Source of the DNA: Desulfocapsa sp. | Lineage (GTDB): Bacteria; Desulfobacterota; Desulfobulbia; Desulfobulbales; Desulfocapsaceae | Length of the DNA stretch: 33,484 bases | NCBI GenBank assembly: GCA_030145625.1 | Contig: JAQYVF010000052.1 | Coordinates: 1-33,484 of the forward strand | Direction: 5' to 3' | The notes under the pieces: generated by a model | Databases searched by the model: none | Told to the model about the DNA's origin: nothing | The model's input: the letters and a program-made list of their open reading frames with translations, nothing else | In this document: in pieces, positions 917-29,598 of the stretch | Layout of the letters: each line of letters starts with the position of its first letter | Numbering within the stretch: the first letter of the stretch is position 1 | Made by a program: the position numbers and the translations under genes

Positions 917-2068
917 ATGAGAACAAGAAAGCAGGAACTTAGCTTTTACAGAAGAATCAGGATTAGTCTGGGATTGATGGGAATTCTTCCATTTCTCCTG
1001 GCCATGTATCTGGTCTTAAAAGAAGTGGGGAAACCGAGCCAGACTATGGTACTGAGTGCGGCCCTGGTTCTCTTTAGTATCCTCATGGGCTTTGTTCTGT
1101 TGCGTAAATCCTCGGATCAGCTTGCCTCCTTGGCAAGAAAGACATCTCTCCCCGGACCCGGGGATATTCCCTTGCCTCTTACTGTGGATGTTGATGGTGA
1201 GCTAAAAGATATTGCCACAAATTTTAATGTCGTGGTTGAACAGCTTAACCAGGCTAACCGGGATATACAGAGTCGGAGTTTCCAGCTCCAGGAATTTGCC
1301 GGCAATCTGTCCGATTCCTATGAACAGCTGGAACGAGAGAATCAGCTGCGTAACCATCTCTGTCGGTATGTCGGTAAGGATCTCGTTGAAAAACTCATGC
1401 TATCCAAAGATGGCCAACTGTTGAAAAACGAGAGAAAAATCGTTACTGTCATGTTTGCAGATATCCGTTCTTTTACAGCAATTTCAGAGCAGATAGAGCC
1501 TGAGGAAGTCCTTGCCATGCTCAATGAGTATTTTACCGCCATGGTGGATATTGTTTTCAAATATGATGGGATGCTTGACAAGTTGGTGGGTGATCAGATT
1601 ATGGCGGTATTTGGTCATATGTCCAATGAAAGGAAGGGCGCCAGGGCTGCTCTACGGGCAGCATTTGAGATGCAGAATGCTGCTGCTGCTTTGATGCGGA
1701 AACGGGCCAAAGATGGGTTGCCTGTATTCAAGATCGGGATCGGTATTAATACCGGTAGTGCCATTCTCGGCAGTGTCGGGTCGGAAAACAGAAAAGATTA
1801 TACAGTAATTGGAGATACCGTGAATGCGGCTGCCCGCCTGGAAAAACATGCAGGGGAGAGGGAAGTGGTTATAGGTGAACGCACCTGTAAACATATACCT
1901 CCGTCCATCTACACCGGCAACAGGCAGGAATTATACATGAAAAATCGTTTGGAGCCTGTTGTCTGCTATACTCTGACTCCGAAAAAAAAGAGAGTTGCCA
2001 AGAGAGTAAAGTCTGAGTCAAAGAAAATGCGTTTACCCCCTCTCCTCCAAGGTGAAGTTGTTTGCTGA
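917..2068 (+). CDS. Membrane-anchored class III adenylate cyclase
   Basis: A 383-residue protein. Two membrane segments (about residues 15-35 and 45-63) are followed by a HAMP-like and coiled-coil linker (70-165) and a class III nucleotide cyclase domain (about 170-355). Catalytic residues are in place: metal-binding Asp182 (FADIRSF) and Asp226 (KLVGD), adenine-binding Lys222, Asp294 in KDYTVIGD at the base-selecting position, and the transition-state pair Asn303 and Arg307 (NAAARLE). Lys plus Asp point to ATP rather than GTP, so cAMP is the expected product. A GGAAGAG sequence lies ahead of ATG 917. The C-terminal tail is Lys/Arg-rich. The PilZ gene just upstream suggests that c-di-GMP and cAMP signalling meet here (inference). 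Confidence 0.88.
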   Translation: MRTRKQELSFYRRIRISLGLMGILPFLLAMYLVLKEVGKPSQTMVLSAALVLFSILMGFVLLRKSSDQLASLARKTSLPGPGDIPLPLTVDVDGELKDIATNFNVVVEQLNQANRDIQSRSFQLQEFAGNLSDSYEQLERENQLRNHLCRYVGKDLVEKLMLSKDGQLLKNERKIVTVMFADIRSFTAISEQIEPEEVLAMLNEYFTAMVDIVFKYDGMLDKLVGDQIMAVFGHMSNERKGARAALRAAFEMQNAAAALMRKRAKDGLPVFKIGIGINTGSAILGSVGSENRKDYTVIGDTVNAAARLEKHAGEREVVIGERTCKHIPPSIYTGNRQELYMKNRLEPVVCYTLTPKKKRVAKRVKSESKKMRLPPLLQGEVVC

Positions 2069-2078
2069 AGGGAGGGAG

Positions 2079-2882
2079 CTATTTTTCGGTCTGCTCTCGT
2101 TTTTTGTTTTGCATTGTCTCTTCAATGGCTGTGAAGTTGAGGGTACTGTGTACCGTCATCAGGGGAAAGATCATGGCCATGAGAAAGATGTTGAGGACCG
2201 GGACAACACTGACCAGGGCCGGGAAAACACCCAATCGGAAGGATGGTGTGCTGTGGCTGCGTAACCAGTTGATCTTCCGTCCCAGACTCCAGCGCCTGCG
2301 AGAGGTCGGATAGTCCACAAACATGAGCGCAGAGTAGTAGGTATAGAGGAGAAAGACCACAATTTGCCCGATTCCTGGAATGAAGTTGGCCGCCAGTGCC
2401 GCGATGGTTACCAGGATTCCGAAACCGGCAATTTTCAACCCTTCAAAGAGATCAATAAGTATTCCCTTGATATTCAGAGCTGCATCTGCTTCAAAATGCT
2501 CACCTGCATGTATCTTTTCCGCTGTCGTACTGAGAAAGACGTAACCGGGAGAGGAGAGAGTGTAGGCAACGAGAAAGGCCAGATAAAAGGCGACGATACG
2601 GCTGATAATCAGAAAAAGCCATTTGACAACCATCCACCCTATATATTTCGTCCATCCCCAAATGCCTGCAGCCTCAGGCTGAGTCAGGAAGAAATTTCCA
2701 GTAAGGCCGTCCACAAAATCAACGGTGAGGAGGTAGCCTGCCCAGGTGAAGGCCATGGTCATCAGGATGAGGAATGCACTCCAGGCCATCAGGCGCTTGG
2801 AGCGCAGGATAAAGGCAAAGGAGTAGGAGAGCGGGATCCATTTTGCCGGTGCGGAGATTCTTGGAGTGTTGTTGTTATCCAT
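2079..2882 (-). CDS. EI24/CysZ-like integral membrane protein
   Basis: A 267-residue polytopic membrane protein of the EI24 (DUF540) family, which includes the sulfate permease CysZ. Hydrophobic helices lie near residues 32-55, 80-110, 150-190 and 225-250. The C-terminal half carries the family-typical pattern: a loop after PGIGQ, a D-Y-P segment (MFVDYPTSRR), a basic WSLGRK stretch and a final helix with PVLNIFLM. Similarity to the family is clear, but CysZ function is only a possibility, because no sulfate-assimilation genes lie nearby and many EI24 proteins are uncharacterised. The gene converges on the cyclase with 10 bp between stop codons. No obvious ribosome site precedes the start. 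Confidence 0.7.
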   Translation of the reverse strand: MDNNNTPRISAPAKWIPLSYSFAFILRSKRLMAWSAFLILMTMAFTWAGYLLTVDFVDGLTGNFFLTQPEAAGIWGWTKYIGWMVVKWLFLIISRIVAFYLAFLVAYTLSSPGYVFLSTTAEKIHAGEHFEADAALNIKGILIDLFEGLKIAGFGILVTIAALAANFIPGIGQIVVFLLYTYYSALMFVDYPTSRRRWSLGRKINWLRSHSTPSFRLGVFPALVSVVPVLNIFLMAMIFPLMTVHSTLNFTAIEETMQNKKREQTEK

Positions 2883-3053
2883 GAGAGAGGTGTCTTTAGG
2901 GTGAGAGTTATAAGTGTAATGAAAAACAATTGTTGTATACAGTAGGACTTTTTGGGAAGGGAGTAAAGGGCGATGCTGTTCTTTTGCAGGGGGATATGAT
3001 AGAGTCCTGTTGGTGTTCAGAACTATAAGTATTATTTAAGGAATCGGATTCGC

Positions 3054-4418
3054 ATGGGAAAGAAACAGGACAAGGCTTTTGTCTGTATCGATTGCGGTGC
3101 GGATTTCAGCCGCTGGCTTGGACAATGCAGTGTCTGCAGAGAGTGGAACACGGTGAAAGAGGTGCGCCTGGGCAGGAGTAGTGTCGATCGTGCTCGCGGC
3201 TACAGTGGCAAACGTTCCACTGTGCAACTGCTTTCTGAGGTTGACCGCAGTCGTGCCGAAAGGATTTCAACCGGAATTGTAGAATTTGACCGGGTTCTGG
3301 GGCAGGGAATTGTCTGCGGTTCAGTGGTCCTTATCGGCGGAGCTCCGGGAGCGGGTAAATCAACACTCCTCCTTCAGGCCCTGGCCAATGGTGCTCATGC
3401 CGGAATACCTGTACTCTATGTCTCTGGAGAGGAGTCACCCCAGCAGATAGCTGGACGGGCCTATCGACTTGGCCTTCCGGTGGATAATATCAAGATGCTG
3501 GCAGAGACCTCCGTTGAGGAGATCTGCGTAGTGCTTGATGAGGAAAAACCGCAGATTGTGGTCATTGATTCCATCCAGGTGGTGCACACCAAGGGATCCG
3601 AATCTGCCCCCGGCTCCATTTCTCAGGTACGCGAATCTGCTGCTGCCTTGACCCAGTATGCCAAAGAGACCAATACTTCCATTTTTATGGTGGGTCATGT
3701 GACCAAGGATCATTCCCTGGCCGGTCCCATGACACTCAGTCATATCGTGGATGCCCAGGTAGTCCTCTCATCTACTGATGATGCCCGCTACCGGATCCTG
3801 CGGGCGGATAAGAATCGGTTTGGCAGTGTCGGGGAGCTTGGGTTTTTTGCCATGACCGACACCGGTCTCAAGGAGGTGAAAAATCCCTCTGCCATGTTTC
3901 TTTCACGATCCGGCAGTGAATCTTCCGGCAGTGTGGTAACGGTTATCTGGGAGGGAACCAGACCTCTGCTCGTGGAAATACAGGCGCTGGTTACTGAAAG
4001 TCAGTCTGGCAATCCCAGGCGGCTGGCAGTGGGCATGGATCAGAACAGGATCGCAATGTTGCTGGCAGTCCTGGCCAAGCACGGAGGGATGGGAACTGCC
4101 AGTGATGAGGTGTATGTCAACGTGGTGGGAGGAATACGGATCTACGAGACCAGTTCCGACTTGGCAGCGGTGATGGGTATTGTCTCCAGTTTGAGGGACA
4201 GGGTTATCCCCCATGACTCCCTCTACTTCGGTGAGATCGGGCTCAGCGGCGAGATTCGGCCGGTGGCCAATGGTGAGGCCAGGTTAAAAGAGGCTGCCAA
4301 GCATGGTTTCCGTCGAGCTGTAATCCCTCGGGCCAACGCACCGAAGCACGCTGTTGAGGGATTGGAGATTGTACCCGTATCCAGTCTGGTGGAGGCTCTT
4401 GAGGTATTTATTGGCTAG
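3054..4418 (+). CDS. radA: DNA repair protein RadA (RadA/Sms)
   Basis: A 454-residue protein, the normal length for RadA. It starts with a C4 zinc finger (CIDCG...CSVC within the first 35 residues), then a RecA-like ATPase core with Walker A GGAPGAGKST and Walker B VVIDSIQ, the RadA-specific KNRFG motif, and a Lon-protease-like C-terminal domain (GEIGLSGEIRPV). RadA is a branch-migration helicase that extends recombination intermediates with RecA. AAGGA at 3039-3043 is placed correctly for ATG 3054. The TAG stop lies at the edge of a fold-back repeat (4417-4559), whose first bases AG are the last two bases of the stop codon. Confidence 0.95.
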   Translation: MGKKQDKAFVCIDCGADFSRWLGQCSVCREWNTVKEVRLGRSSVDRARGYSGKRSTVQLLSEVDRSRAERISTGIVEFDRVLGQGIVCGSVVLIGGAPGAGKSTLLLQALANGAHAGIPVLYVSGEESPQQIAGRAYRLGLPVDNIKMLAETSVEEICVVLDEEKPQIVVIDSIQVVHTKGSESAPGSISQVRESAAALTQYAKETNTSIFMVGHVTKDHSLAGPMTLSHIVDAQVVLSSTDDARYRILRADKNRFGSVGELGFFAMTDTGLKEVKNPSAMFLSRSGSESSGSVVTVIWEGTRPLLVEIQALVTESQSGNPRRLAVGMDQNRIAMLLAVLAKHGGMGTASDEVYVNVVGGIRIYETSSDLAAVMGIVSSLRDRVIPHDSLYFGEIGLSGEIRPVANGEARLKEAAKHGFRRAVIPRANAPKHAVEGLEIVPVSSLVEALEVFIG

Positions 4419-4559
4419 GAGCCTGTCTGAGAATGCCCTTTCTCCCCAACTCTTCGGAATTCTCAAAGAATAATGCTCGCAATATCAAACATATGGCTGT
4501 GCTTATTTTTTGAGAATTTCTCGCTTTGAGAAGAAATCCCTATTCTCGGACAAGCTCCT
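4417..4559 (+). repeat. Fold-back element D (143 bp, divergent member of the palindromic family)
   Basis: The ends are imperfect inverted repeats: aggagcctgtctgagaat on the left pairs with attctcggacaagctcct on the right (16 of 18 positions). Inside the ends the two arms keep pairing, for example TTCTCAAAGAATAA on the left against a near-identical reverse complement on the right, so the unit can fold into one long hairpin. It shares the central motif AATATCAAACA(T/G)ATG and the CTCTTCG block with the elements at 5317, 15586 and 24340, but has different termini. There is no ORF, so if mobile it is non-autonomous (MITE-like). Its left end overlaps the radA stop codon. Confidence 0.75.
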
Positions 4560-4678
4560 GGTGCCTGTCCTAACTGGTTAAAAGATGATGAGCAGAATGC
4601 TTTCTTTTTGTATAAAAACGTTTTGTTACGTTGGTCACGGTGAACAAGAGAAGTATAAATTTGAACAGAGAGGATTTC

Positions 4679-5296
4679 ATGGATTTTAAAATGCATCTGG
4701 AAACTGCATGGCAGAATACGCTGCAGTTTATCGTCCCGGTCATTCTGCTGACCCTGGTACAAATGGTGGTGGCAATTTTTAGTCTGGGTATTTTGCTCCC
4801 TGTCACGACAGCCGGATATATGCAGTCCCTGCTTCTTGCCTTGCGTGATGGGCGTGAGCCAAAGATCGGTGATCTCTTCTCCGAGATGCGCCTCTTTCTT
4901 CCCCTCTTTCTCTTTGGGTTAGTGGCCATGCTGGCCGTGACTTTAGGGTTTGCCCTCTTCATTCTCCCAGGTTTTCTTGTTACCTTATTCATTGTTTTTG
5001 CCACCATCTATGTCGTGCCTTTGATGACGGATCAGAAAATGGGATTGCTCGATGCCCTGAAAGGATCTTGGGAAATGGCGATGAGAGAGCCTTTGGCGGA
5101 TCAGATCATCCTTATGGTCCTCTACATGGTCCTTATTTCCCTGGGCAGCTCCATTGCTGTGGCCGTACTTTTTACTCAACCTCTGGCCACCTTTCTGGTG
5201 CTGTCGGTCTATGAAGAACGCCTCAATGGGAAACAGGATGTTATAGAACAGGGGCCTTCCGTTCCTCCCCCTCCTCCTACCGATAAAGAGGTGTAA
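4679..5296 (+). CDS. Small polytopic membrane protein of unknown function
   Basis: A 205-residue protein. ATG 4679 is chosen over an in-frame GTG at 4631 because GAGAGG lies five bases ahead of it. It has about five hydrophobic segments (roughly residues 14-37, 40-60, 75-110, 112-125 and 150-185) and a Pro-rich tail (PSVPPPPPTDKEV). The arrangement, with a G-L-L-D-A-L-K-G-S-W motif between helices, recalls the DUF975 / glycerophosphodiesterase membrane-domain type of bacterial membrane proteins. I do not recognise a specific family and no function can be given. The gene stands alone between fold-back elements D and A, so it probably forms its own short transcript. Confidence 0.7.
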   Translation: MDFKMHLETAWQNTLQFIVPVILLTLVQMVVAIFSLGILLPVTTAGYMQSLLLALRDGREPKIGDLFSEMRLFLPLFLFGLVAMLAVTLGFALFILPGFLVTLFIVFATIYVVPLMTDQKMGLLDALKGSWEMAMREPLADQIILMVLYMVLISLGSSIAVAVLFTQPLATFLVLSVYEERLNGKQDVIEQGPSVPPPPPTDKEV

Positions 5297-5456: not shown

Positions 5457-5496
5457 TTATAGAGAAGGGAAGGGCTCGTAAAGGGGATGTAGATTG

Positions 5497-8400
5497 ATGG
5501 AAATGCAAAAAGATGAAGTTGAAAAAGGTGTTGCTGAGATTCTGGGTTGGCAGCGTTTCGAATGGGAAGGGCATACGCTCTATGTCCAGCCAGATATCCC
5601 GGACTGGGTTGTTGTCTCTGGAGCAAGCGATCGGCTTCTTGGGGATGGAGAAAGAGGCACTGACAACTTTTATGCTCTGGATCGGCTGGTTGGTGCTCTG
5701 GAGGCAGAGCCCATACGTCCTTATCGGGGACGAGAATCGGCGCTGACGCTGGACCGTCTCAAAGAATGCTGGGTTCATCTTACCGATGCCTGTAATCTCA
5801 GCTGTCGTCACTGTCTCTTTGCCGCGTCTCCTACCAAAACAAGGAGCCTGGAAGCTGAGTGTCTGCAGGAGACAGTGGACCAGGCCCTGGCTTTGGGTTG
5901 CCGTCTCTTCTCCTTCACAGGCGGAGAGCCCTTCCTCTATCCTGATTTTCTTTCATTTTTGCGCAGCTTGCTGGAGGGAAACCAGGATGTCCATGTTGCA
6001 ATTCTGACCAACGGTATGCTGTTGGACCGGTATCTTGATGAGCTCAAAGGAATGGATCATCTCCATCTGCAGGTGAGTCTTGACGGACTGGAGACTGCTC
6101 ATGACAGATTGCGGGGTCACGGCAGTTATCGTAAGCTCATGGAAAATCTCAGAGCCCTTCAGGAGGCGGAGATTCCGGTTACCCTTTCAGTGGCACTCAG
6201 TCGTGAAAATATAGAGGATCTTCCGCAGCTGGTGGACGTGGCCGTAGAAGTGGGGGCCGCAAGTATCCACCTCCTCTATCACTTTATCAGGGGGAAGGGG
6301 AGCCGGGAGCAGTTTATCGATAGTGATACCATCTTTCCTCAGCTCCTTGCCGCCTGGCGGCGGGCAGATGAACTGGGACTGACCATCGATAATATCGAGA
6401 CCCTGCGCAGCCAGGTCTTTTCTACCCCCGGCACCCGCTATGACCTCTCCAACACGGGTTGGGAGTCGCTGGCTGTGGGACCGGACAAAAAAATCTATCC
6501 GTCACCGGCCCTGGTTGGGATGAAGGAATGTGTCTGCGGCAGCCTGGATCAGGGCTTGGCAGAGGTCTGGCGCACGAGTCCGGTCCTGGAAGGACTGCGT
6601 CGGAGTTCGTTGATTGATTCTTCTGCCTATCAGCTCAATCCTCTTAAGTTTCTGGTGGGCGGTGGCGATATCGACCACAGTTTCATGCACAGCGGCCATT
6701 GGGTGGGACATGATCCCTATGTGGAACTTTATAATCGTATTGCCCTCCAGCTTATTGTTGATCAGGCCAAGCGCTACAGGAGTGGTGAAAACAGCGCGAT
6801 CCGACTGCGTATGGGGGATGTCCGTTATGATTGTCCTGGCGAAGAAGCGAGTTCCGATGTGGCCTTGACCCACTGCAACTGTTTGATATCTCTGGCCTCT
6901 GACACTGGGCATAGTTCGGTTCGGGACTTTTATAGTCAGGCTGCATTGGCTGCCAATGAGGAGATTGTCAACCCCCTTGCCCCTGCTCAGGCCGAGGCGG
7001 AGTTTATTCCCAGTGAGACCCGTGAGCGTTCCTACGGCTGCGGCAGCCCGGTGACCGATGGTGCCCCGCAAGAGGGCGAGACCCTGGTTGATCTCGGATC
7101 TGGTTCCGGAGTTGAGTGTTTTATGGCCTCTTCTTCGGTGGGTCGAAGCGGTAAGGTCTACGGGATTGATATGACCGATGAGATGCTGCATCTGGCTAAT
7201 GATACACGAGCTGAAGTGGCAACGCGTCTGGGCTATGACAATGTGGAGTTTCGCAAAGGATTTCTTGAGCAGATCCCCTTAGACGATGGGGTGGCGGACG
7301 TGGTCATCTCCAACTGTGTCATCAATCTCAGTCCTGACAAGCGGATGACTTATCAGGAGGTCTTCCGTATACTCAGGCCTGGGGGCAGGTTGGTGGTCTC
7401 GGACATAGTTACTGACACAGCTATCCCCCTTGGAATACGAAATAATGTTCGTTATCGTGGCGAATGTCTGGGCGGGGCCATGCAGCAGGAGGAACTGGTG
7501 AGCATGATGGAGGCGGCAGGATTTGGCTCCATTCGTTTTCTCAAGCGTTTCCCCTATCGACAGGTGGAGGGGATGGACTTTTTTTCTCTAACCTATCAGG
7601 CAGAGCGCCCTGTTGGTGTCGGGAAGGAAGAGGGGAAAGTGGACGTGGTCTACAGAGGTCCCTTTGGTGCCGTATATACTGAATCCGGCATCCTTCTGGT
7701 CAAGGGAAGACGCACCGCTATCCCAGCTCCAGAGGTGTCTTTACTGGATGATTCCGTCTTTGTCCTGGATGGCCAGGGAGCTGTGACTAACCTGGTGATG
7801 GAGAATTCCTGCTGTGCTCCGCAGGTCGAAATTGGTCTGGCTCGGAGTGGCTGCGACACCGATACCGGAGGATGCTGCGAGAGCAGTGAAGGGTTGCCGG
7901 AGAAAGAGCGGAAAGGCGAGGGCTGCATGGTCTGCGGTGAGGATGTGCATTATTTTACCGAGAATAGGGAGATGCGTTGTAGCTATTGCGGACGTGTTCG
8001 GTCTGCGAATGCCTGCTGTGAACAGGACCATTTTGTCTGTGACAACTGTCACCGGGAAAACGGAATCGAGGTGATCAAAGCGATCTGCACCAGCACGGAG
8101 GAGAAAGATCTTATCAATTTGCTCGAACTGATTCGCAGTCATCCGGCCATCCCCATGCACGGTCCGGAGCACCATGCCATGATTCCGGGTATCATCCTGG
8201 CCTGTTATCGAAACTGCGGTGGAGAGCTCAAGGGTGAGAGTATTCTTACCGGGATTGGACGGGGGGCTGATATCCCAGGCGGGGTCTGTGGCTTCTGGGG
8301 GGCCTGCGGGGCAGCGGTTGGCGCAGGAATCGCAGTGTCCACCATCCTGGCAGCCACTCCCCTTACTCCTGCATCCAGGCAGACTGCTCAGGGGTTCAGT

Positions 8401-8646
8401 GCAGAGATCCTGGCAGCCATTGCCCGTTACCGTGGGGGGCGCTGTTGCCAGCGCGAAACCTGGATTACCCTCACTGAAACAGCCAGGCTTTCAGCAGAGA
8501 TACTGCCCGTGACCATGGAGGCAAAAGGAACAATCCACTGTGAACAGTATTTGAAAAACCGAGAGTGTATCCGCAAACAGTGCCCCCTCTGGGAAAACAG
8601 GGTGAAAACGCTGAAGCAGGAGTATCGTTTCCTCTCCCTGCCTTGA
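5497..8646 (+). CDS. Radical SAM / ArsM-like methyltransferase / DUF5714 fusion protein
   Basis: A 1049-residue multidomain protein; ATG 5497 has AAGGGGA at 5481-5487. Residues 1-90 resemble the short PqqD/RRE-like region found before some radical SAM domains. The radical SAM core follows, with C99-x3-C103-x2-C106 for the [4Fe-4S] cluster and TGGEP at 141-145; a SPASM-like region with Cys pairs follows near 330-350. Residues about 505-710 form a SAM methyltransferase with LGSGSG at 533-538 and Cys515, Cys607 and Cys657, in the positions of the arsenic-binding cysteines of ArsM arsenite methyltransferases (the last two are 50 apart, as I recall for ArsM). A Cys-rich linker (772-794, two CC pairs) leads to a C-terminal DUF5714 domain with four CxxC-type pairs and a GFWGACGAA segment. 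The likely role is making or modifying an organoarsenical. Arsenic chemistry is inferred from the cysteines only; no ars operon genes are adjacent. Confidence 0.82.
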   Translation: MEMQKDEVEKGVAEILGWQRFEWEGHTLYVQPDIPDWVVVSGASDRLLGDGERGTDNFYALDRLVGALEAEPIRPYRGRESALTLDRLKECWVHLTDACNLSCRHCLFAASPTKTRSLEAECLQETVDQALALGCRLFSFTGGEPFLYPDFLSFLRSLLEGNQDVHVAILTNGMLLDRYLDELKGMDHLHLQVSLDGLETAHDRLRGHGSYRKLMENLRALQEAEIPVTLSVALSRENIEDLPQLVDVAVEVGAASIHLLYHFIRGKGSREQFIDSDTIFPQLLAAWRRADELGLTIDNIETLRSQVFSTPGTRYDLSNTGWESLAVGPDKKIYPSPALVGMKECVCGSLDQGLAEVWRTSPVLEGLRRSSLIDSSAYQLNPLKFLVGGGDIDHSFMHSGHWVGHDPYVELYNRIALQLIVDQAKRYRSGENSAIRLRMGDVRYDCPGEEASSDVALTHCNCLISLASDTGHSSVRDFYSQAALAANEEIVNPLAPAQAEAEFIPSETRERSYGCGSPVTDGAPQEGETLVDLGSGSGVECFMASSSVGRSGKVYGIDMTDEMLHLANDTRAEVATRLGYDNVEFRKGFLEQIPLDDGVADVVISNCVINLSPDKRMTYQEVFRILRPGGRLVVSDIVTDTAIPLGIRNNVRYRGECLGGAMQQEELVSMMEAAGFGSIRFLKRFPYRQVEGMDFFSLTYQAERPVGVGKEEGKVDVVYRGPFGAVYTESGILLVKGRRTAIPAPEVSLLDDSVFVLDGQGAVTNLVMENSCCAPQVEIGLARSGCDTDTGGCCESSEGLPEKERKGEGCMVCGEDVHYFTENREMRCSYCGRVRSANACCEQDHFVCDNCHRENGIEVIKAICTSTEEKDLINLLELIRSHPAIPMHGPEHHAMIPGIILACYRNCGGELKGESILTGIGRGADIPGGVCGFWGACGAAVGAGIAVSTILAATPLTPASRQTAQGFSAEILAAIARYRGGRCCQRETWITLTETARLSAEILPVTMEAKGTIHCEQYLKNRECIRKQCPLWENRVKTLKQEYRFLSLP

Positions 8647-8733: not shown

Positions 8734-9681
8734 TTAATCTATCTTTAAAATACGCAGGTTCATATTGGAAACGGCCTCTTTTCGTTCCTGGGCACTGAGC
8801 TGATTGGAGATCATGGGAACCGTTATTTTCATGTTCCCTTCCAGGATAATTTTTTTGGTGATGGTCTCAAAGCCGGGTCGGGTGACGGTGAGGGTGTGGT
8901 CTCCTGGGATGAGCTCAACACCTTCAACAGGGCTTGTGCCGAGAAGTATCCCGTCCATCTCGACCATGGCCGGATCGGCACTGGTCTGAATCCAGACTTT
9001 GACTCTACTCTTTTTCCCATTATTCAGTCGATTATTGAGTTCTTTTTCTAAAGCAGGGATACCGGCGACAATGGCCTGCTGGTAGAGTTGCAGAAGATCA
9101 TCTTCCCCTATCTCCGTTTGCAGGCTCCCTGTCTGCCGGAATTTACGGGAGGCCTTGCCTTCTTCCAGGGCAATGACATCTCCATTCACGGTATCCATGG
9201 CCTGCAGCATGACCCGAAGGTTGAGGGTAGTGAATTCGGCCTGATGTCCCCCTTGATTGACCTTTTGCTTGCTCGTGGACAGGGCCAGAAGGCTGCCTCG
9301 TATCAGGGCGTCACCGTCCAGGGAGCGGGCAGCATTGAAAAAGGTGGGGCCAAGGGGAGTGGGACGTTCTCTGGTGGCAAAGAGGGTGTTGGGGAGTGGG
9401 TCTGAGCCATCACGAAGCTGTAGTTGTTCGATCTGGCGGACAAAGTCCCGTCGATCAATGAGGGTAAAACCGGGTGAGGCCAAGAGGGATTGCTGAAGGA
9501 AATAGACTCCTTTTTCAGTAAAGGCCCTTGAGTTGAGTGGACCGGTGAGGGCTGTATCTGCAATTCCTCCTGTCTCGTCAGTAAAGTCGAGCATGATCAC
9601 TCGCAGAGGACGGGCATGGGCTGACAGGGCAAGGAAGAAAAGGGTCAGGGCAGCAATGAGGCAGGTAGCTTTTCTATACAT
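8734..9681 (-). CDS. Exported CsgG-like / PEGA-domain protein
   Basis: A 315-residue protein. ATG 9681 is preferred to GTG 9690 because AAGAGG lies eight bases ahead of it. A signal peptide (about residues 1-23, ending SAHA) is followed by a domain resembling the CsgG/LpoB-type nucleotide-binding-like fold (RVIMLDFTDETGG..., with later strands containing DALIRGSL). The C-terminal 75 residues form a PEGA domain (VEMDGILLGTSPVEGVELIPG...TVTRPGFE), a beta domain common in surface and periplasmic proteins. There is no lipobox Cys, so it is probably periplasmic. It is divergent from lpoB and the COG3014-like gene with a 221-bp shared control region, and the shared CsgG/LpoB-like theme suggests one envelope pathway. 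Confidence 0.7.
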   Translation of the reverse strand: MYRKATCLIAALTLFFLALSAHARPLRVIMLDFTDETGGIADTALTGPLNSRAFTEKGVYFLQQSLLASPGFTLIDRRDFVRQIEQLQLRDGSDPLPNTLFATRERPTPLGPTFFNAARSLDGDALIRGSLLALSTSKQKVNQGGHQAEFTTLNLRVMLQAMDTVNGDVIALEEGKASRKFRQTGSLQTEIGEDDLLQLYQQAIVAGIPALEKELNNRLNNGKKSRVKVWIQTSADPAMVEMDGILLGTSPVEGVELIPGDHTLTVTRPGFETITKKIILEGNMKITVPMISNQLSAQERKEAVSNMNLRILKID

Positions 9682-9798
9682 GGCATGCACCTCTTATGAG
9701 AGAAGGTTGAAAAAATGACTTTTTGAGATGGTACCCTTATGAATCCTGAAAGGCAAATGAAAATGATTTCAGTATGGGGGGCTAATCTGTGGTTAGAA

Positions 9799-9827
9799 TT
9801 GCCTTCTTTTGCAAAAAAAGATATGCT
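9799..9827 (+). promoter_or_regulatory. Candidate sigma70-type promoter for lpoB
   Basis: TTGCCT and TATGCT are separated by exactly 17 bp, which would place the transcript start near 9834, about 70 bp before the lpoB start codon. Each hexamer matches four of six consensus positions. This is a motif match only. Confidence 0.35.
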
Positions 9828-9902
9828 TGAACGGTGAAAATAATTCAGGCCTGAGTTGGCTGAGTATGCATGTTGCTATCCCATTTAACAGGAGAAATTA
9901 TC

Positions 9903-10520
9903 GTGAATTCATCTCTGCTTACCTCTGTTGCGGGGGCCTCTGTTCTGGCCCTGCTCCTTCCCGGCTGCTCCGCCTTCAGGATGTCCACAGAAGATGTCCA
10001 TCCCGAAAACCTGGAGCATTACCGGGCCGACTATGATGCCTCGGACATGCGCAAGATCACCACTGCTGTGGTTAATAATATTTTGGCCAGTCCCTTCCTG
10101 GCCCAGCAGAGTTCACCCCCGATAATGACCATTGCAGGTGTTGAGAATCGCACCCGTGAGTATGTGGATACCAAAAATCTCACAGATCGGATGCGGACCA
10201 TGCTCCTGAAGAGCGGTAAAATGCAGTTTGTCAATACAGCCAGGAGACAGGATCTCCTCAATGAACAGGGCTACCAGGCGGCCAATGCCACTGCTGAAAC
10301 CATGACAGCCATCGGCCAGCAGATGGGAGCCAAGTATATGATTACCGGATCCCTGACCCAGATGACTCAGGAGACCGGCAAACAGGCCCGGGTTTCCACC
10401 CAGCGTCTCAATTACTATAAGTTGACAATGGAGATTACTGATCTTCAGTCCAGTCTGATTATCTGGACTACGGAAGAGGAATTTGCCCGCAACGAATCCA
10501 TTCCCCTTATCGGCTGGTAG
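9903..10520 (+). CDS. lpoB: Penicillin-binding protein activator LpoB-like lipoprotein
   Basis: A 205-residue lipoprotein starting at GTG 9903, with AGGAGA at 9890-9895. A short signal sequence ends in the lipobox LLLPGC, so the mature protein is anchored by its N-terminal Cys. The body matches the LpoB family: a region with MTIAGVENRTREYVDT, a helix with a conserved LLKSGKMQFV pattern, GAKYMITGSL, and a strand with YKLTMEITDLQSSLIIW. In enterobacteria LpoB sits in the outer membrane and stimulates the peptidoglycan polymerase PBP1b. The linked COG3014-like gene and the divergent PEGA gene fit a known type of neighbourhood. Activation of a class A PBP here is inferred from the family. Confidence 0.85.
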   Translation: MNSSLLTSVAGASVLALLLPGCSAFRMSTEDVHPENLEHYRADYDASDMRKITTAVVNNILASPFLAQQSSPPIMTIAGVENRTREYVDTKNLTDRMRTMLLKSGKMQFVNTARRQDLLNEQGYQAANATAETMTAIGQQMGAKYMITGSLTQMTQETGKQARVSTQRLNYYKLTMEITDLQSSLIIWTTEEEFARNESIPLIGW

Positions 10521-10529
10521 ATCTTTCTG

Positions 10530-11804
10530 GTGCTGAATCGTCTGTTCCATTGCTCTAGAGGGTTGTTGCTTGCGATCCACTGCGCTTTGCTCCTTTCTGC
10601 CTGTGCTGGTCATGATCTCCCTGATGCCAGGACTGCTTTTTATCAGGGTAACTACGGGCTTGCCAAAGAAGAAATAGGCAGCGACGAGATCGATGGGGTG
10701 GATTCTGTGCTGGTATTGATGGAGCGGGGGACCATCTATCAGACAGAAGGAGAGTATGAAAAGAGTTCCATGGATTATATCCGGGCGGGTGACATCCTGA
10801 AGGAGTTGCAGACCTATTCCCTCTCAGAAGGTGCAGGAAGTTGGGTGGTCAATGATACGGTGTATTCTTTTGAAGGCGCACCTTTTGAGCAAACCATGCT
10901 TCATTCCTTTACTGCGCTCAATCACCTGGCCATGGGAAACTGGGGGGACGGTGGGGTGGAGGCCAGGAGGATTATCTATTCACTGCGCCCGGAGGAGCGT
11001 GGTGAAGACTATCCTGACGATGCTTTTTCCCGGTATCTGGCAGCATTTATTTTGCAAATGACCGGTGATCGAGCCAATGCCGAGGTGCAGTATCAACTGG
11101 CTGATGAGTTGCTGCCGGAGCTTAGCATTGATGACAGAGGGGGCATAGGATATGGAGCCCCGAGGAGCATTGCAGCAGTTTACAATGGTGTGGGGCTCCG
11201 CAATGAGGTGGCAAGCGAGTATGAACTTGTCTGTTTTTTTCTCCTTGGCCGCTCTCCCACGATGCGTGAGCTGAGGGGTCAGTATATCCATTCTTTTTTC
11301 CCCCCTCAAATTCAGATTTATACGGGGGACCGTCATCTTGGGGATGCAACGATCCTGACCAATATCCATAGCTTGGCAATGACCACATGGAATCTGGAGG
11401 CCCCGGCAAGGATTGCTAAGACTGCTGCCAGAATTGCGGCCAAAGAGGTCTTGGCAAGCGCCGTTGATGAACAGGATGCGGCTCTGGGGGCGCTCACCAG
11501 GATTATTCTGATCGGAATGATGGAGCGCCCTGACTTTCGGCGCTGGGAAACGCTGCCTCGCTGGCTGGCGGTGGCTCGACTCTCCTGTCCTGCCGACCTC
11601 ACCTCCTTTGATGTCAAACTTCAGGGGGGGGGCAGTGGTTCGGCAACCGTCCTCCATGTGCAGAAGCCCCTGCTCCGACGCGGGAAGGTATTTTTTTCTT
11701 TTGTCCGGGATCTTCCCGGGTTTAATGGTGTCGGGATGATAGAAGAGAGTGACCAATCCTTGGCAAAACCAATATCTGTATCAAGCGAAGGCAGTGAAGA
11801 ATAA
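10530..11804 (+). CDS. COG3014-like lipoprotein linked to LpoB
   Basis: A 424-residue protein. The start is GTG 10530, nine bases after the lpoB stop, with no clear ribosome site, so translational coupling to lpoB is likely. The signal peptide ends in the lipobox LLLSAC. The N-terminal half contains TPR-like helical repeats (residues about 30-200: ARTAFYQGNYGLAKEEI, RGTIYQTEGEYEKSSMDY, YLAAFILQMTGDRANAEVQY). The C-terminal half is less helical and holds YGAPRS and VARLSCP. Its position and form fit the poorly characterised COG3014 family that accompanies LpoB. The function is unknown; a scaffold or partner for LpoB in the outer membrane is a reasonable inference. Confidence 0.65.
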   Translation: MLNRLFHCSRGLLLAIHCALLLSACAGHDLPDARTAFYQGNYGLAKEEIGSDEIDGVDSVLVLMERGTIYQTEGEYEKSSMDYIRAGDILKELQTYSLSEGAGSWVVNDTVYSFEGAPFEQTMLHSFTALNHLAMGNWGDGGVEARRIIYSLRPEERGEDYPDDAFSRYLAAFILQMTGDRANAEVQYQLADELLPELSIDDRGGIGYGAPRSIAAVYNGVGLRNEVASEYELVCFFLLGRSPTMRELRGQYIHSFFPPQIQIYTGDRHLGDATILTNIHSLAMTTWNLEAPARIAKTAARIAAKEVLASAVDEQDAALGALTRIILIGMMERPDFRRWETLPRWLAVARLSCPADLTSFDVKLQGGGSGSATVLHVQKPLLRRGKVFFSFVRDLPGFNGVGMIEESDQSLAKPISVSSEGSEE

Positions 11805-11837
11805 CGCTCTTGCACAGGGAGTATGGAAATGAGCGGC

Positions 11838-13442
11838 TCAGTCAGCTCTTACCAGGTGTATCCGTCCGTCAGGGGTTGGCGGATTGAGGAGATGAGTCTG
11901 ATTGAGTTTTTCCGCCAGGAGTGAGTAGAGGGTGGTGTAGGTGTTCACCTGATCGTGACCATATTCTTTAAACCAGTAGTACTGGTCACCTCCGTTTTGG
12001 GCCAGATAGGCATTGGTGGCAAGGCTATACTCTTTTTCAGGCTCTATGGCAGCGTAGGAACCGTCTTTGTTGCGGATTTGGGCCTCAACTATTCGCTTTC
12101 CTGGGTTGAGCACCTGCCAGTTTTCTCCCTTTTTGGCAATCTCCTGACTGCTTGCGGACGGGTTGATTGTTACGCGCAGGCCGGCCACCTGGAGAAAACC
12201 GCCTTGGCCGAAGAGGGCTGCAGAGTGTTCCAGAATTTCATGGAGATATTTCCCTTTTATTTTCAGGAGGTAGACATCATTTTCAAATTCATCTATCTCG
12301 TGGAGCATGGTGTCTGTGATCTGTCCGGCCGGGTATTGCTTGTTTCCCCGGAAGGCCCCGCCGTTATTGAGTACGACATCTACCTGGAATTTTACTAAGA
12401 TCAAGTCATTGACCATGTCAGCCACCGTGGATTCTCCGGCCCTGACGGATTTTTTATCAAGCTGCCAGGCCTTATCGGTTCGGCCCAGGACAACGGATGC
12501 AGGAAGTTGGTCACTATAGTGCTGCAGTTGTTGAGCTGTTGCCTTATCTTCAGCAATCGATTCGGTCACCGGTATCAGACTATAGGCTGCTGATCCCGGA
12601 ATGATCTTGTTGTCGTTGCCGAGTCTCACATCCAGACGAACAAGAGCAGCCCCTTTTTCCCCACCATTGACGATCAGGGTCTTGTTTACAGTTTCCAGTT
12701 TTGGCAGGTATGCATGGGAATGACCGCCAAAGATAAGATCAATCCCTTCCACACCGGCAGCAAGTTCACGGTCAAGATCGGCACCAATATGTGTTATTGC
12801 CACCACCAGGTCAGCACCCTTTTGACGAAGTTCTGCGGCCATTTGTTTGGCTACTGTATGGCTTGAACCGTTTAAAGAAACATTGCCGGTGGTGGTTACA
12901 TAGGGAAATTTGGGGGTCATCAGGGAAAAAAAACCGATATTGACTCCGTTGTATTTCCTGATCAGCAAAGGTTGACAGGAGCCTTCCAGCACAGTCCCTT
13001 TGACTGTCAGATCGGAACAGAGGGAAACAAAGGTCGTTTTTTCCAGGGCTTCGGCAAGCAGCCCCGGTCCTCGGTCAAACTCGTGATTGCCAAGACCAAG
13101 AACCTCATAGCCGGCACTACCAAGGAGAGTAAAGATGGCCTTGCCGTCAAAGGTGTGGAAGTAGCGTCCCATCAGGTCATCTCCTGAAGAGAGGACGATG
13201 ACGGGGTCCTGGTTCTGTTGTTTGATCTCTTTGATCAGGGTGGCAAGTCGGGCTATTCCACCGACTACATCAATTTTTTTGCCTTGCTTGCCAAGGTCGA
13301 TGGAGCGAGGGGTTGACTCCAGCTGTCCCTGCAGATCGGCAGTGCCGAGGAAAGTAAGCTGTTGGGTTGCTGCTGAGAGACCTGAACAGCTCAGCAAGAG
13401 TGAAAACAGTGCTGAAAAAAGGATGACGTGTGTGTCTTTCAT
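11838..13442 (-). CDS. Periplasmic 5'-nucleotidase / UshA-type metallophosphoesterase
   Basis: A 534-residue exported enzyme with a signal peptide (residues 1-24). GGAG lies just ahead of ATG 13442. The calcineurin-like metallophosphatase domain carries SSGDDLMG (bridging Asp), GNHEFD (Asn-His), VAITHIG and GGHSHAYL (His-x-His). A 5'-nucleotidase C-terminal domain follows (VADMVNDLIL, NNGGAFRG, LEHSAALFGQGGFLQVAGL). Such enzymes dephosphorylate nucleotides or 2',3'-cyclic nucleotides in the periplasm. One oddity is that the first metal motif, usually D-x-H-G, reads ADLQGQLE, so the His ligand is Gln; the codon is clearly CAG. It converges on the COG3014-like gene with 33 bp between stops. Confidence 0.88.
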   Translation of the reverse strand: MKDTHVILFSALFSLLLSCSGLSAATQQLTFLGTADLQGQLESTPRSIDLGKQGKKIDVVGGIARLATLIKEIKQQNQDPVIVLSSGDDLMGRYFHTFDGKAIFTLLGSAGYEVLGLGNHEFDRGPGLLAEALEKTTFVSLCSDLTVKGTVLEGSCQPLLIRKYNGVNIGFFSLMTPKFPYVTTTGNVSLNGSSHTVAKQMAAELRQKGADLVVAITHIGADLDRELAAGVEGIDLIFGGHSHAYLPKLETVNKTLIVNGGEKGAALVRLDVRLGNDNKIIPGSAAYSLIPVTESIAEDKATAQQLQHYSDQLPASVVLGRTDKAWQLDKKSVRAGESTVADMVNDLILVKFQVDVVLNNGGAFRGNKQYPAGQITDTMLHEIDEFENDVYLLKIKGKYLHEILEHSAALFGQGGFLQVAGLRVTINPSASSQEIAKKGENWQVLNPGKRIVEAQIRNKDGSYAAIEPEKEYSLATNAYLAQNGGDQYYWFKEYGHDQVNTYTTLYSLLAEKLNQTHLLNPPTPDGRIHLVRAD

Positions 13443-13772: not shown

Positions 13773-13794
13773 GAGAGTAATCGAACAAAATGAC

Positions 13795-13834
13795 AAAAAA
13801 CCGCCTGGGGCATAGCTCCTTGGCGGTTTTTTTG
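13795..13834 (+). terminator. Intrinsic terminator after the His-rich peptide gene
   Basis: CCGCC (13801-13805) pairs with GGCGG (13822-13826), with further pairing inside (TGGGG / CTCC), an A-run on the 5' side and seven T residues on the 3' side. It ends 22 bp before the rnhA start, so rnhA either uses a promoter overlapping this hairpin or depends on read-through. Confidence 0.8.
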
Positions 13835-13855
13835 TTTTTATGTCAGTGGTGGAGT

Positions 13856-14548
13856 ATGGCTGGGAAAAAGTTTTATGCAGTGGCGCAAGGTCGGAGGCCG
13901 GGAATATATGGTTCGTGGCCGGATGCTGAAGCCCAGGTTAAGGGATATAGCGGCGCCAGGTTCAAGGGGTTTAGCAAGCGATCTGAGGCAGAGACGTGGA
14001 TGGAAAATCCTGAGTACCAGCAGAAGCCGAAAAGAGTGGCAAGCAAGCAGGGAGTACAGCAAAAACATCCTGAAACTCGCGGCGACCGGGTGGAGATTTA
14101 TACCGACGGTGGGGCCATCAATAATCCAGGCCCGGGAGGGTATGGAGCGATTATCCGGGTAGAGGGAAAGGAACAGGAGATCTCAGGCGGCTATCGGCTG
14201 ACAACAAATAATCGGATGGAACTCATGGCCTGTATCAAGGCCATCGCTGCCCTGTCGGTTCAGGATAAACCGATCCATCTTCATTCAGACTCCAGCTATG
14301 TGGTTAACGGTATCAGTAAAGGCTGGGCCAGAGGCTGGCGTAGGCGCGGTTGGCTGAAGTCCGATGGGAAACCTGCCCTGAATTCCGATCTCTGGTCTCG
14401 GTTGCTGGACCTCATAGAGGGACTGGATATCAGTTTTCACTGGGTCAAGGGGCATGCCGGTCACCCTTTAAATGAACGCTGCGATCAACTGGCTGTAAAG
14501 AATGCCAGAAAAAATGATTTACCCGAGGACACAGGTTACAAACCATGA
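13856..14548 (+). CDS. rnhA: Ribonuclease HI with N-terminal hybrid-binding domain
   Basis: A 230-residue protein. Residues 1-50 are an RNase H1 N-terminal (viroplasmin-like) domain that binds RNA/DNA hybrids (KKFYAVAQGRRPGIYGSW...GFSKRSEAETWM). The catalytic domain spans about 80-225, with the four acidic residues in YTDGG, NNRMELMA, LHSDSSYV and ERCDQLA, and the basic WARGWRRRGW handle. It removes RNA from RNA/DNA hybrids, including R-loops and primers. ATG 13856 is chosen because a longer frame from ATG 13790 runs through an intrinsic terminator. The ribosome site (GGAG) is only one base away from 13856, which is unusual. The stop overlaps the srkA start by 4 bp (ATGA). Confidence 0.92.
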   Translation: MAGKKFYAVAQGRRPGIYGSWPDAEAQVKGYSGARFKGFSKRSEAETWMENPEYQQKPKRVASKQGVQQKHPETRGDRVEIYTDGGAINNPGPGGYGAIIRVEGKEQEISGGYRLTTNNRMELMACIKAIAALSVQDKPIHLHSDSSYVVNGISKGWARGWRRRGWLKSDGKPALNSDLWSRLLDLIEGLDISFHWVKGHAGHPLNERCDQLAVKNARKNDLPEDTGYKP

Positions 14549-27169: not shown

Positions 27170-27206
27170 AAATATGCCAACATTATTTTCGGCATATTTC
27201 TTTTAA
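27169..27206. terminator. Bidirectional terminator between the PA14 gene and hypB
   Basis: GAAATATGCC (27169-27178) pairs perfectly with GGCATATTTC (27191-27200), a 10-bp stem with a 12-nt loop, followed by TTTT on the plus strand and flanked by ATTCT on the other. The loop holds the hypB stop codon, and the right-hand stem arm encodes the last residues of HypB. Confidence 0.7.
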
Positions 27207-27893
27207 ATAGTCCAGCCACTGCTCAAATCCTTGTCCGCTGGTGGCAGAAAGATCCATGACCAGTAATTTGGGGTTCAGCTGCAAGGCCTCGGCCCGGGCC
27301 TCCTCAACAGGGAAATCAAAGTAGGGAAGGAGATCGGTCTTGGAAATAATAAAGACCTGGGAACTGGTAAAGGCTTTGGGGTATTTTGCTGGCTTGTCAG
27401 GTCCTTCCGGCACAGAAACCAGGACCACCCGGTGATGTTCCCCTAAGTCAAAGGTGGCCGGGCAGACCAGATTGCCTACGTTTTCAATGACAAGCAGATC
27501 GAGTTTGTCGCCGTCTGGCTCTTTTTCCAGAAGATGCAGTCCCTTGTGGATCTGGGCTGCGTCCAGGTGACATGCCCCACCGGTGGTCAACTGGATTACG
27601 GGAACTCCCTTGGCACGAATACGTTCTGCATCCCTTTCTGTTTCAATGTCCCCCTCTATCACACCGATTCGGAGGCTGTCGCCAATGGCTTCAATGGTTT
27701 TTTCAAGGAGCGTGGTCTTGCCGGAACCGGGGCTGGAAATCATGTTGATGGCCACTGCCCCCATCTTTTCAATATGGGCCCTGTTTTTTTTTGCCATGGC
27801 CGTGTTGGCGGCAAGCAGGCTCTGGTGGACTTCAACGATCTTAGGGTCGTGGGAATGGTCGGGAGTTATATCACAGCCGCATGAATCACACAT
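27183..27893 (-). CDS. hypB: Hydrogenase nickel-insertion GTPase HypB
   Basis: A 236-residue GTPase that, with HypA, delivers nickel to [NiFe]-hydrogenase. The N-terminal MCDSCGCD provides the high-affinity nickel site (Cys2, Cys5, Cys7), with a short His segment (DHSHD) rather than a long His-rich tail. The G domain has the P-loop SSPGSGKTTLL, GDIETERD, the metal-site Cys and His in TGGACHLDA, and the nucleotide base motif SKTDLL. GAAGGTG lies ahead of ATG 27893. It is the last gene of the hyp operon. The preceding 41-codon ORF ends two bases before its start. Confidence 0.96.
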   Translation of the reverse strand: MCDSCGCDITPDHSHDPKIVEVHQSLLAANTAMAKKNRAHIEKMGAVAINMISSPGSGKTTLLEKTIEAIGDSLRIGVIEGDIETERDAERIRAKGVPVIQLTTGGACHLDAAQIHKGLHLLEKEPDGDKLDLLVIENVGNLVCPATFDLGEHHRVVLVSVPEGPDKPAKYPKAFTSSQVFIISKTDLLPYFDFPVEEARAEALQLNPKLLVMDLSATSGQGFEQWLDYLKEICRK

Positions 27894-27895
27894 AA

Positions 27896-28021
27896 TTACA
27901 CCTTCATAAAAAATGGCAGCCGAAGCGGCCGGTTGTCAAAAATTGATTTAAGTGCAGGTTGCAGTTGAATCAGCAACCCTGCATTGTACTCTTTTGCCAA
28001 ATTGTCACTTTGTCCGTTCAT
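27896..28021 (-). CDS. Candidate 41-residue small ORF between hypA and hypB
   Basis: ATG 28021 to TAA 27896-27898 gives 41 codons whose product has a plausible protein-like composition (MNGQSDNLAKEYNAG, then a hydrophobic/basic end RPLRLPFFMKV). It lies in frame with hypA, eleven codons after the hypA stop, and ends two bases before the hypB ATG, with the hypB ribosome site inside its last codons. No Shine-Dalgarno precedes its own start. Two hairpins lie inside (a near-perfect one at 27953-27983 and a GC-rich one followed by six T on the minus strand), so the region may instead be a regulatory leader for hypB. I recognise no family. A remnant of a deleted gene is a further option. Confidence 0.35.
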   Translation of the reverse strand: MNGQSDNLAKEYNAGLLIQLQPALKSIFDNRPLRLPFFMKV

Positions 28022-28054
28022 GGAGGATAGGATCTCATTGGCGAAACAAAACGG

Positions 28055-28399
28055 TTATTCCATTTGCACCTGTCGGAGAATAATATCATCTCCTCCCTCT
28101 GGGCTGAGAAGGTTTTCTAAACAGACGGGGCAGGCCTCAGGCTTCTCTTCTTCTTCTATTTTTGCTCCGCAGCCACAGCAGTGGTAGGTGGCGGGTGAAC
28201 TTTCTATGACCAGGCTGGCACCATGAGTTAATGGATCTTCGTCGGAGAGGATGTCAAAGGCGAATTGAAACGAGTCTATGACCACCCCGGAAAGGGGGCC
28301 GATATCCATAGATACGCTTATGACCTTTGTTTTGTTGTGCTCTCGGGCCAGGCTGTGAAGTTGGCTGAGCAGGCCCTGAACCAGGGACATTTCATGCAT
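28055..28399 (-). CDS. hypA: Hydrogenase nickel chaperone HypA
   Basis: A 114-residue nickel metallochaperone. The start is set at ATG 28399 because HypA must begin Met-His-Glu-Met (His2 binds nickel); the longer frame from TTG 28420 adds residues not found in the family. The C-terminal half has the zinc site, two Cys pairs in CCGCGAK and CPVC. There is no Shine-Dalgarno ahead of 28399, but the start overlaps by 8 bp the end of a 41-codon ORF that has a good one, so translational coupling is likely. The length is normal. Confidence 0.95.
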   Translation of the reverse strand: MHEMSLVQGLLSQLHSLAREHNKTKVISVSMDIGPLSGVVIDSFQFAFDILSDEDPLTHGASLVIESSPATYHCCGCGAKIEEEEKPEACPVCLENLLSPEGGDDIILRQVQME

Positions 28400-28517
28400 A
28401 ACTACTTTTCTCTTTTTCAATATTTTGCGAATGGATGGTGCAACCTAAGCTCTTTAGCCGCTGCACAAGAAGATTACCGATTCCGAGTATTCCAATTTTT
28501 TTGTTTTCGTGTTCCAT
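28392..28517 (-). CDS. Candidate 41-residue small ORF or gene remnant between hypE and hypA
   Basis: ATG 28517 follows TGAGGAGCCGGA, in which the hypE stop codon is part of the ribosome site and AGGAG is five bases from the start. The 41 residues begin MEHENKKIGILGIGNLL and end EKEKSSYA; the TGA overlaps the hypA start by 8 bp (ATGCATGA). The GILGIGNLL stretch resembles the N-terminus of [NiFe]-hydrogenase maturation peptidases (GxGNxL), while the following VQRLKSLGCTIHS fits the first beta-alpha-beta unit of a Rossmann NAD(P)-binding domain. Either a truncated relic whose translation still couples hypE to hypA, or a real microprotein. I cannot decide which. Confidence 0.5.
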   Translation of the reverse strand: MEHENKKIGILGIGNLLVQRLKSLGCTIHSQNIEKEKSSYA

Positions 28518-28526
28518 TCCGGCTCC

Positions 28527-29546: not shown

Positions 29547-29598
29547 TTTCTTTTACACTCTCCACAAAATTTCTATCTTTATTGGCCTTTAACCTTCC

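Follow-up and report, generated by a model that had tools for sequence, protein, structure and literature searches.

We analyzed a 33,484-nucleotide stretch of DNA from Desulfocapsa sp. (the window; contig JAQYVF010000052.1 of GenBank assembly GCA_030145625.1, positions 1 to 33,484 of the forward strand), in which one gene encodes a radical S-adenosylmethionine (SAM) enzyme, an ArsM-like methyltransferase, and a DUF5714 domain as a single fused protein. Across the genomes of the phylum that we surveyed, the fusion always occurred together with a glycosyltransferase gene named for arsenosugar biosynthesis and never together with ArsS, the radical SAM enzyme of the known arsenosugar route, suggesting that the fused protein may itself make compounds of the arsenosugar type.

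One open reading frame encodes three domains

The features of the gene are as follows; counts such as 18/18 refer to the aligned full-length members of the family described below.

5480..5486, + strand: AAAGGGG, ten bases ahead of the ATG, resembling a ribosome-binding site and possibly acting as one
5497..8646, + strand: whole fused gene, 1049 aa plus stop; frame open from 5494, ATG at 5497
5758..6282, + strand: radical SAM core, about residues 88-262 (Pfam PF04055 at 95-247)
5791..5814, + strand: CX3CX2C motif, C99, C103, and C106 (18/18)
6277..6921, + strand: radical SAM tail, residues 261-475, the former SPASM/twitch region; auxiliary-cluster cysteines gone; C446, H459, N461, and C462 retained
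6967..7596, + strand: ArsM-like methyltransferase domain, residues 491-700 (Pfam and NCBIfam profiles, profile search of solved structures)
7039..7041, + strand: C515, counterpart of CmArsM C72 (alignment; 18/18)
7315..7317, + strand: C607 in SNCV, counterpart of CmArsM C174 (alignment; 18/18)
7465..7467, + strand: C657 in GECL, counterpart of CmArsM C224 (alignment; 18/18)
7597..7824, + strand: ArsM C-terminal extension, residues 701-776, with C772-C773 (NF040538 match extends to residue 774)
7924..8049, + strand: C810, C813, C828, C831, C841, C848, and C851, zinc-ribbon-like in our reading (18/18)
8074..8592, + strand: DUF5714 (PF18978), residues 860-1032, with C931, C937, C983, C984, C1015, C1024, and C1029 (Pfam; cysteine alignment)

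A preliminary description of the locus had proposed this three-part chain and a profile search of its domains. The uninterrupted frame bears the proposal out, and all three domains scored above their Pfam gathering scores: Radical_SAM (PF04055) at residues 95-247 (E 1.7e-26, 93.8 bits against a cut-off of 29.5), Methyltransf_31 at 526-675 (E 2.2e-29), and DUF5714 (PF18978) at 860-1032 (E 5e-59, 199.2 bits against 26.2). A predicted model of the DUF5714 part reached a mean confidence (predicted local distance difference test, pLDDT) of 80.1, and no known fold could be assigned to it.

The fusion is a real and old family

We searched 297 genomes from the phylum, the window's own included, and found the fusion in 24. 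In 19 of these (the window among them), it is a single uninterrupted open reading frame (ORF); three copies are cut by contig ends (G041, G209, and G261), and two are split into two ORFs in different frames (G218 and G156). A scan of GTDB species genomes, in which the best 80 loci were considered, recovered at least seven fusions of the triple kind. Full-length examples were L042 (Desulfocapsa, 68% best-segment identity to the window protein), L043, L044 (Ca. Eisenbacteria), L047 (Chitinivibrionales), and L048 (Desulfogranum japonicum DSM 18378), while L045 and L046 end at contig ends, L046 being the same contig as G209. In the D. japonicum fusion (L048 9986-12910), no match to the ArsM C-terminal extension was seen. 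A build of radical SAM plus ArsM without DUF5714 was found in G016 (L238, 828 aa); L242 and L049, which are the same contig, carry a similar two-domain form, but it is cut at the contig end and a DUF5714 part may lie beyond.

Of the 26 cysteine positions checked, 24 are C in all 18 aligned full-length members, including those of the CX3CX2C motif (C99/C103/C106), which the preliminary description had rightly called intact, and C773; the exceptions are C772 (16/18) and C460 (5/18). Because 24 of 297 genomes carry the fusion and its cysteines are so well kept, we conclude that it is an old family and no chance join. An assembly artefact was rejected on the same recurrence, in the phylum and in further species genomes. 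Among the papers that our literature search covered, none was listed on a radical SAM/ArsM/DUF5714 fusion and none mentioned DUF5714.

The methyltransferase part retains the arsenic-binding triad of ArsM

C515, C607, and C657, the last two 50 residues apart as the preliminary description had noted, align to C72, C174, and C224 of the solved CmArsM (numbers counted by hand from the alignment), and the structure of the C72A CmArsM mutant (5eg5) reads A at the C515 column. Loss of these cysteines in homologues, the observation that the preliminary description had named as counting against it, was not seen: each of the three arsenic-binding positions is C in 18/18. When the family profile was compared with solved structures, the best five were all arsenite methyltransferases (E 1.5e-51 to 7.7e-49). 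The nearest NCBIfam model is the arsenite methyltransferase NF008823, at 222.7 bits for the whole protein and 222.9 bits for the domain alone, short of the cut-off of 263. On its sequence, we therefore describe this part as ArsM-like and do not assign it to NF008823. In a tree of methyltransferases (24 of 30 ArsM rows neighboring ArsS and 30 of 57 other ArsM rows; L242 not retained), the methyltransferase parts of the fusions formed one clade of 23 rows with a Shimodaira-Hasegawa-like approximate likelihood ratio (SH-aLRT) support of 97, outside the ArsS-neighbor rows.

The radical SAM part is not ArsS and has lost the SPASM cysteines

On the ArsS model TIGR04167, the fused radical SAM part scored 54.4 bits against a cut-off of 300, close to the scores of other radical SAM proteins encoded by the window's genome (52.7 and 50 bits). 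Two trees, each using 14 of 41 ArsS rows, placed the two families apart. In the first (67 rows, the window protein not among them), support was 100/100 for a clade of ArsS and 98/99 for a separate one of the fusions. In the second (65 rows, built by a quick method, with the window protein included and the long rows L004, L008, L035/L240, and L226 left out), ArsS again formed one clade (SH-aLRT 100), and the fusion clade (SH-aLRT 99) held 25 rows: 24 labeled fusions, P0001 among them, and one row labeled "other" whose labels point to the truncated G209 fusion (L028/L046). Given the score and the separate clades, we rejected the possibility that this part is ArsS. Its nearest named models, among the matches listed (25 of 80 families), are SPASM/twitch maturases and heme enzymes; there was no ArsL model among those 25, and no directed search for one was made.

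The preliminary description had also suggested a search for a SPASM region. The region is present; its auxiliary-cluster cysteines are gone. At each of eight columns where both distant two-domain relatives have C, 0/18 triple fusions do; three of the eight are C in 5/5 unfused proteins (see below), while C446 and C462 of the tail are retained in the fusions. Since the SPASM cysteines are lost, the radical SAM part likely carries one cluster. The available portion of PMC8552651 proposes ArsL as a single-cluster radical SAM enzyme with a CX3CX2C motif.

The fusion accompanies arsenosugar-named glycosyltransferases and excludes ArsS

We counted marker genes in the 297 genomes with thresholds of E <= 1e-20 for TIGR04282, E <= 1e-45 for TIGR04283, and E <= 1e-30 for ArsS (TIGR04167); all p-values ignore the relatedness of the genomes. 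TIGR04282, the "arsenosugar biosynthesis glycosyltransferase," was found in 135 genomes (134 above cut-off): 24/24 with the fusion versus 111/273 others (p 1.8e-9). TIGR04283 was present in 23/24 versus 108/273. The arsenite pump Acr3, used as an unlinked control, did not differ (16/24 versus 153/273, p 0.39), so we rejected the explanation that the fusion merely follows arsenic resistance.

ArsS showed the opposite distribution. It occurred in 86 of the 297 genomes (85 above cut-off), 0/24 with the fusion versus 86/273 others, and, among genomes with TIGR04282, in 0/24 with the fusion versus 80/111 without (p 1e-11). Fifteen taxonomic families contained fusions and 46 contained ArsS, with an overlap of 0. 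Within the 15 fusion families, TIGR04282 was found in 2 of the nine genomes without a fusion that the count covers. TIGR04169 exceeded its cut-off in 47 genomes, all of them ArsS genomes.

The glycosyltransferase genes lie at varied distances from the fusion. A TIGR04282 or TIGR04283 gene is 90-242 bp away on the same strand in 6 of the 24 genomes; the pair is 3-5 kb away on the opposite strand in two and 18-29 kb away in four. In the remaining 12, it lies on contigs other than that of the fusion or, in G195 with its single contig, about 1.7 Mb off. In L123, the TIGR04283 and TIGR04282 genes, both above cut-off, are the two directly upstream of the fusion, and in L131 the gene directly downstream is itself a TIGR04282/TIGR04283 fusion. 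In the genome of the window, these genes adjoin each other on another contig (C34:19215-20454), both above cut-off, and there is no ArsS above cut-off. In the eight genomes behind L042-L049 (seven fusions and one two-domain form), TIGR04282 was above cut-off in six, and ArsS exceeded its cut-off in 0/8. The gene-neighborhood comparison that the preliminary description had proposed thus ties the fusion to TIGR04282 and sets it apart from ArsS. Overall, the genome company suggests arsenosugar-type synthesis by a route other than the known ArsS one.

Unfused relatives occupy the position of ArsS

We ran a profile of the tail (residues 261-475) on the 75 radical SAM segments that lacked an ArsM domain among the loci gathered. 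It matched seven: five distinct unfused genes (G022, G099, G127, G154, and G268), a duplicate, and a fragment of a fusion. A gap between TIGR04283 and TIGR04169-like genes in G060 proved to hold one more unfused gene, the sixth; its 521-aa product matches both core and tail. Two of these loci are:

L236 (G022:C86) 1326-4674, one strand: unfused radical SAM locus, gene of about 520 aa in an arsenosugar-type set
L250 (G060:C119) 1701-3263: unfused radical SAM locus, gene of about 520 aa in an arsenosugar-type set

In G022, the order on one strand is TIGR04282, TIGR04169-like, radical SAM, and TIGR04283, with 4 to 53 bases between ORF ends. Each of the six unfused genes adjoins a TIGR04169-like gene (100-113 bits against a cut-off of 120) and has a TIGR04282 or TIGR04283 gene adjacent or within about 2.8 kb. 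With such neighbors, the unfused relatives sit where ArsS sits in arsenosugar-type gene sets.

The neighbors scoring just under 120 bits indicate that the TIGR04169 model may miss a real subgroup. In a Thermogutta metagenome-assembled genome (MAG; L091 9938-12098), an ArsM that groups with the ArsS-neighbor ArsM rows adjoins a radical SAM protein of 426 aa. That protein reaches 45 bits against the ArsS model (cut-off 300) and 98.9 against Rv1681, and is perhaps another ArsS replacement.

DUF5714 occurs in other settings that may be metal-related

The nearest NCBIfam model of the DUF5714 end is the metal-binding double selenoprotein MbdU (NF045648), which matches residues 769-1037 with 128.9 bits against a cut-off of 600; the fused gene has no in-frame stop. 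A second DUF5714 gene in the window's genome (L152, G000:C93 2894-5790) has an in-frame TGA, giving 282 aa with TGA as a residue, and scores 358 bits on the same model. Divergent from it lie an ArsR/SmtB-type regulator and an MTH895/ArsE thioredoxin-like gene, both above cut-off, and an efflux permease below it. This locus is, by its sequence, likely a selenoprotein metal(loid) operon. In both G208 and G252, a radical SAM gene (TrsS by model in G208) is followed by a DUF5714 gene, and in G029 a second DUF5714 ORF adjoins the fusion. Such surroundings suggest metal or metalloid handling.

Surroundings of the window gene

The genes next to the fusion on its downstream side, at 8734-10520, a PEGA-domain protein (- strand) and an LpoB-like lipoprotein (+ strand), are not arsenic-related by name. 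No ars regulator or efflux gene was recognized beside the fusion, in agreement with the preliminary description (Pfam on 10 other window ORFs, the rest by eye). The window shares a gene order with the Desulfocapsa MAG L042, namely four upstream genes (917-5296) and an RNase H-like gene named by eye (13790-14548), and has extra genes at 8734-13442 relative to it. A hydrogenase maturation set lies at 27183-33273 (- strand), with HypB-like (CobW family) and HypD recognized by Pfam and HypE, HypC, and HypF by eye. In 8 of 29 loci, for example L123 11436-13659, a small membrane protein (VTT/TVP38-like by eye) joined to a MerA/lipoamide-dehydrogenase-like flavoprotein recurs in the neighborhood of the fusion.

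Discussion

The arsenic triad in 18/18 members, the company of TIGR04282 in 24/24 genomes, and the absence of a link to Acr3 support an organoarsenical role outside classic resistance, as the preliminary description had proposed, although its interpretation as a whole stands only in part. We consider that the fused protein is, with a probability of roughly 0.55, a self-contained organoarsenical synthase of the arsenosugar type. From the domains, conserved residues, gene associations, and exclusion of ArsS that we observed, we infer the chemistry of every step as follows. As(III) would be taken up by cysteines of the C-terminal half and bound at the C515/C607/C657 triad, where the ArsM-like domain, whose residues are in place, would methylate it with SAM. 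The radical SAM domain would cleave another SAM at its [4Fe-4S] cluster and add a SAM-derived group to the methylated arsenic; this part would thus be a second, non-ArsS family in the pathway role of ArsS. The link to arsenosugar-named glycosyltransferases, together with the exclusion of ArsS, points to the same step as that of ArsS. The group is most likely 5'-deoxyadenosyl, a first guess taken from the radical SAM enzyme of arsenosugar synthesis, which according to the available portion of PMC12159101 adenosylates arsenic. The Cys-rich end (C772/C773, the C810-C851 cluster, and DUF5714) would hold or pass on thiol-loving trivalent arsenic; DUF5714 itself probably holds arsenic and, at a guess, may replace TIGR04169. 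Going by their database name and co-occurrence, the TIGR04282/TIGR04283 glycosyltransferases would carry the product on to arsenosugars. The host presumably lives anaerobically.

A broader form of this proposal seems to us evenly balanced. In Desulfobacterota and a few other phyla, arsenosugar-type compounds may be made by a second radical SAM family, As-adenosylating or otherwise C-As forming and not descended from ArsS. This family would come in three builds (alone beside glycosyltransferases, with ArsM, and with ArsM and DUF5714). In the triple form, a single chain that includes an arsenic-holding domain would convert inorganic As(III) into an arsenic nucleoside.

Several observations weigh against an arsenosugar-type synthase. 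TIGR04169, the companion of ArsS, is found in 0/24 fusion genomes, and the methyltransferase falls below the NF008823 cut-off (222.7 versus 263). In the window's own genome, the glycosyltransferase genes do not share a contig with the fusion, and in G195 about 1.7 Mb separates them from it; their roles rest on NCBI naming. TIGR04283 is below cut-off in G162 and was not found in G228; the TIGR04282 match of L048 is below cut-off (101.5 bits), and the L047 Chitinivibrionales genome has no TIGR04282 match. D. japonicum (L048) shows no ArsM extension. The wider clade of fused and unfused radical SAM parts is moderately supported (83/91; SH-aLRT 94) and also takes in four or six other rows. Lastly, both ArsS and the triple fusion are missing from 31 of the 135 genomes with TIGR04282, so the glycosyltransferase pair may also serve something else. 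Five of the 31 carry the unfused form (G022, G099, G127, G154, and G268), G016 has the two-domain form, and G203 has a partial candidate at a contig end; the rest were assigned no radical SAM partner.

We weighed three other explanations. The same organoarsenical logic could operate with a different added group, 3-amino-3-carboxypropyl as in ArsL or a new one, giving a product that is no arsenosugar precursor. A radical SAM part at 54 of 300 bits on ArsS, whose nearest named models among the matches listed are SPASM/twitch maturases and heme enzymes, would be compatible with this, and a single cluster with CX3CX2C fits ArsL too, as the available portion of PMC8552651 describes it; we nevertheless regard it as unlikely, since the tight link to arsenosugar-named glycosyltransferases and the exclusion of ArsS favor the ArsS step. 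More doubtful still is a fusion in which the ArsM serves detoxification and the radical SAM domain modifies a protein or peptide in the manner of SPASM maturases. The best named radical SAM models, again among the matches listed, are indeed the mycofactocin, ScmF, and ACGX-system maturases, but the eight SPASM-region cysteines of the two distant fused relatives are absent in 18/18 triple fusions, and the gene tracks arsenosugar genes rather than Acr3.

We consider it equally improbable that the protein acts on a soft element other than arsenic (antimony, selenium, tellurium, or mercury) and the glycosyltransferases on its product. The settings of DUF5714 lend this idea its support: the stand-alone gene L152 of the window's genome, with its in-frame TGA (358 of 600 bits on MbdU), stands by ArsR/SmtB-like and efflux-permease-like frames, and in G208 one follows the (seleno)protein TrsS. 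Arsenite methyltransferases, however, are the nearest solved structures, and the arsenic triad is retained.

If the fused protein is an arsenosugar-type synthase, such synthesis extends to lineages that seem to lack it by the ArsS marker, which would miss 24 of 297 genomes here. DUF5714 would gain a testable arsenic-related role, and the fusion would offer a single-chain system for studying arsenic methylation and the radical step together. Sediment arsenic cycling is a likely place of relevance.

Two radical SAM reactions forming C-As bonds, in arsenosugar and arsinothricin synthesis, are named in the available portion of PMC12159101, and the preliminary description had cited both pathways as precedents. 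The arsenosugar precedent fits the neighbors. Like the pair of ArsM (AsSugarArsM, NF038099) and ArsS (TIGR04167), the fusion combines an arsenite methyltransferase with a radical SAM enzyme in genomes that have TIGR04282 and TIGR04283. Unlike that pair, it is one chain rather than two genes, bears an extra DUF5714, has a radical SAM part in another clade and far below the ArsS cut-off, and is without a TIGR04169 gene in 24/24 genomes. In arsinothricin synthesis, ArsM and ArsL likewise bring a methyltransferase and a single-cluster radical SAM enzyme to bear on arsenic (PMC8552651, available portion), and the ArsM model NF040538 matches the fusion at 170.8 bits against a cut-off of 500. ArsM and ArsL are not fused, and no arsQ or ars operon was recognized by the window gene (by eye and with Pfam on 10 ORFs; arsL and arsQ were not searched for). 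The NF041536 (ArsM/DUF2284) and NF041537 (ArsM/AhpD) families also join ArsM to a further domain, judging by their names, and the fusion scores 126.8 and 133.3 bits on them, below the cut-offs of 575 and 510; both are named selenoproteins with no radical SAM in the name, whereas the fusion has no in-frame stop. MbdU (NF045648) resembles the fusion at its DUF5714 end and differs in being a selenoprotein by name, the fused DUF5714 having Cys and staying below 600 bits. Three points are new here: ArsS is replaced, the radical SAM part also occurs unfused, and its auxiliary cysteines have been lost in the fusions.

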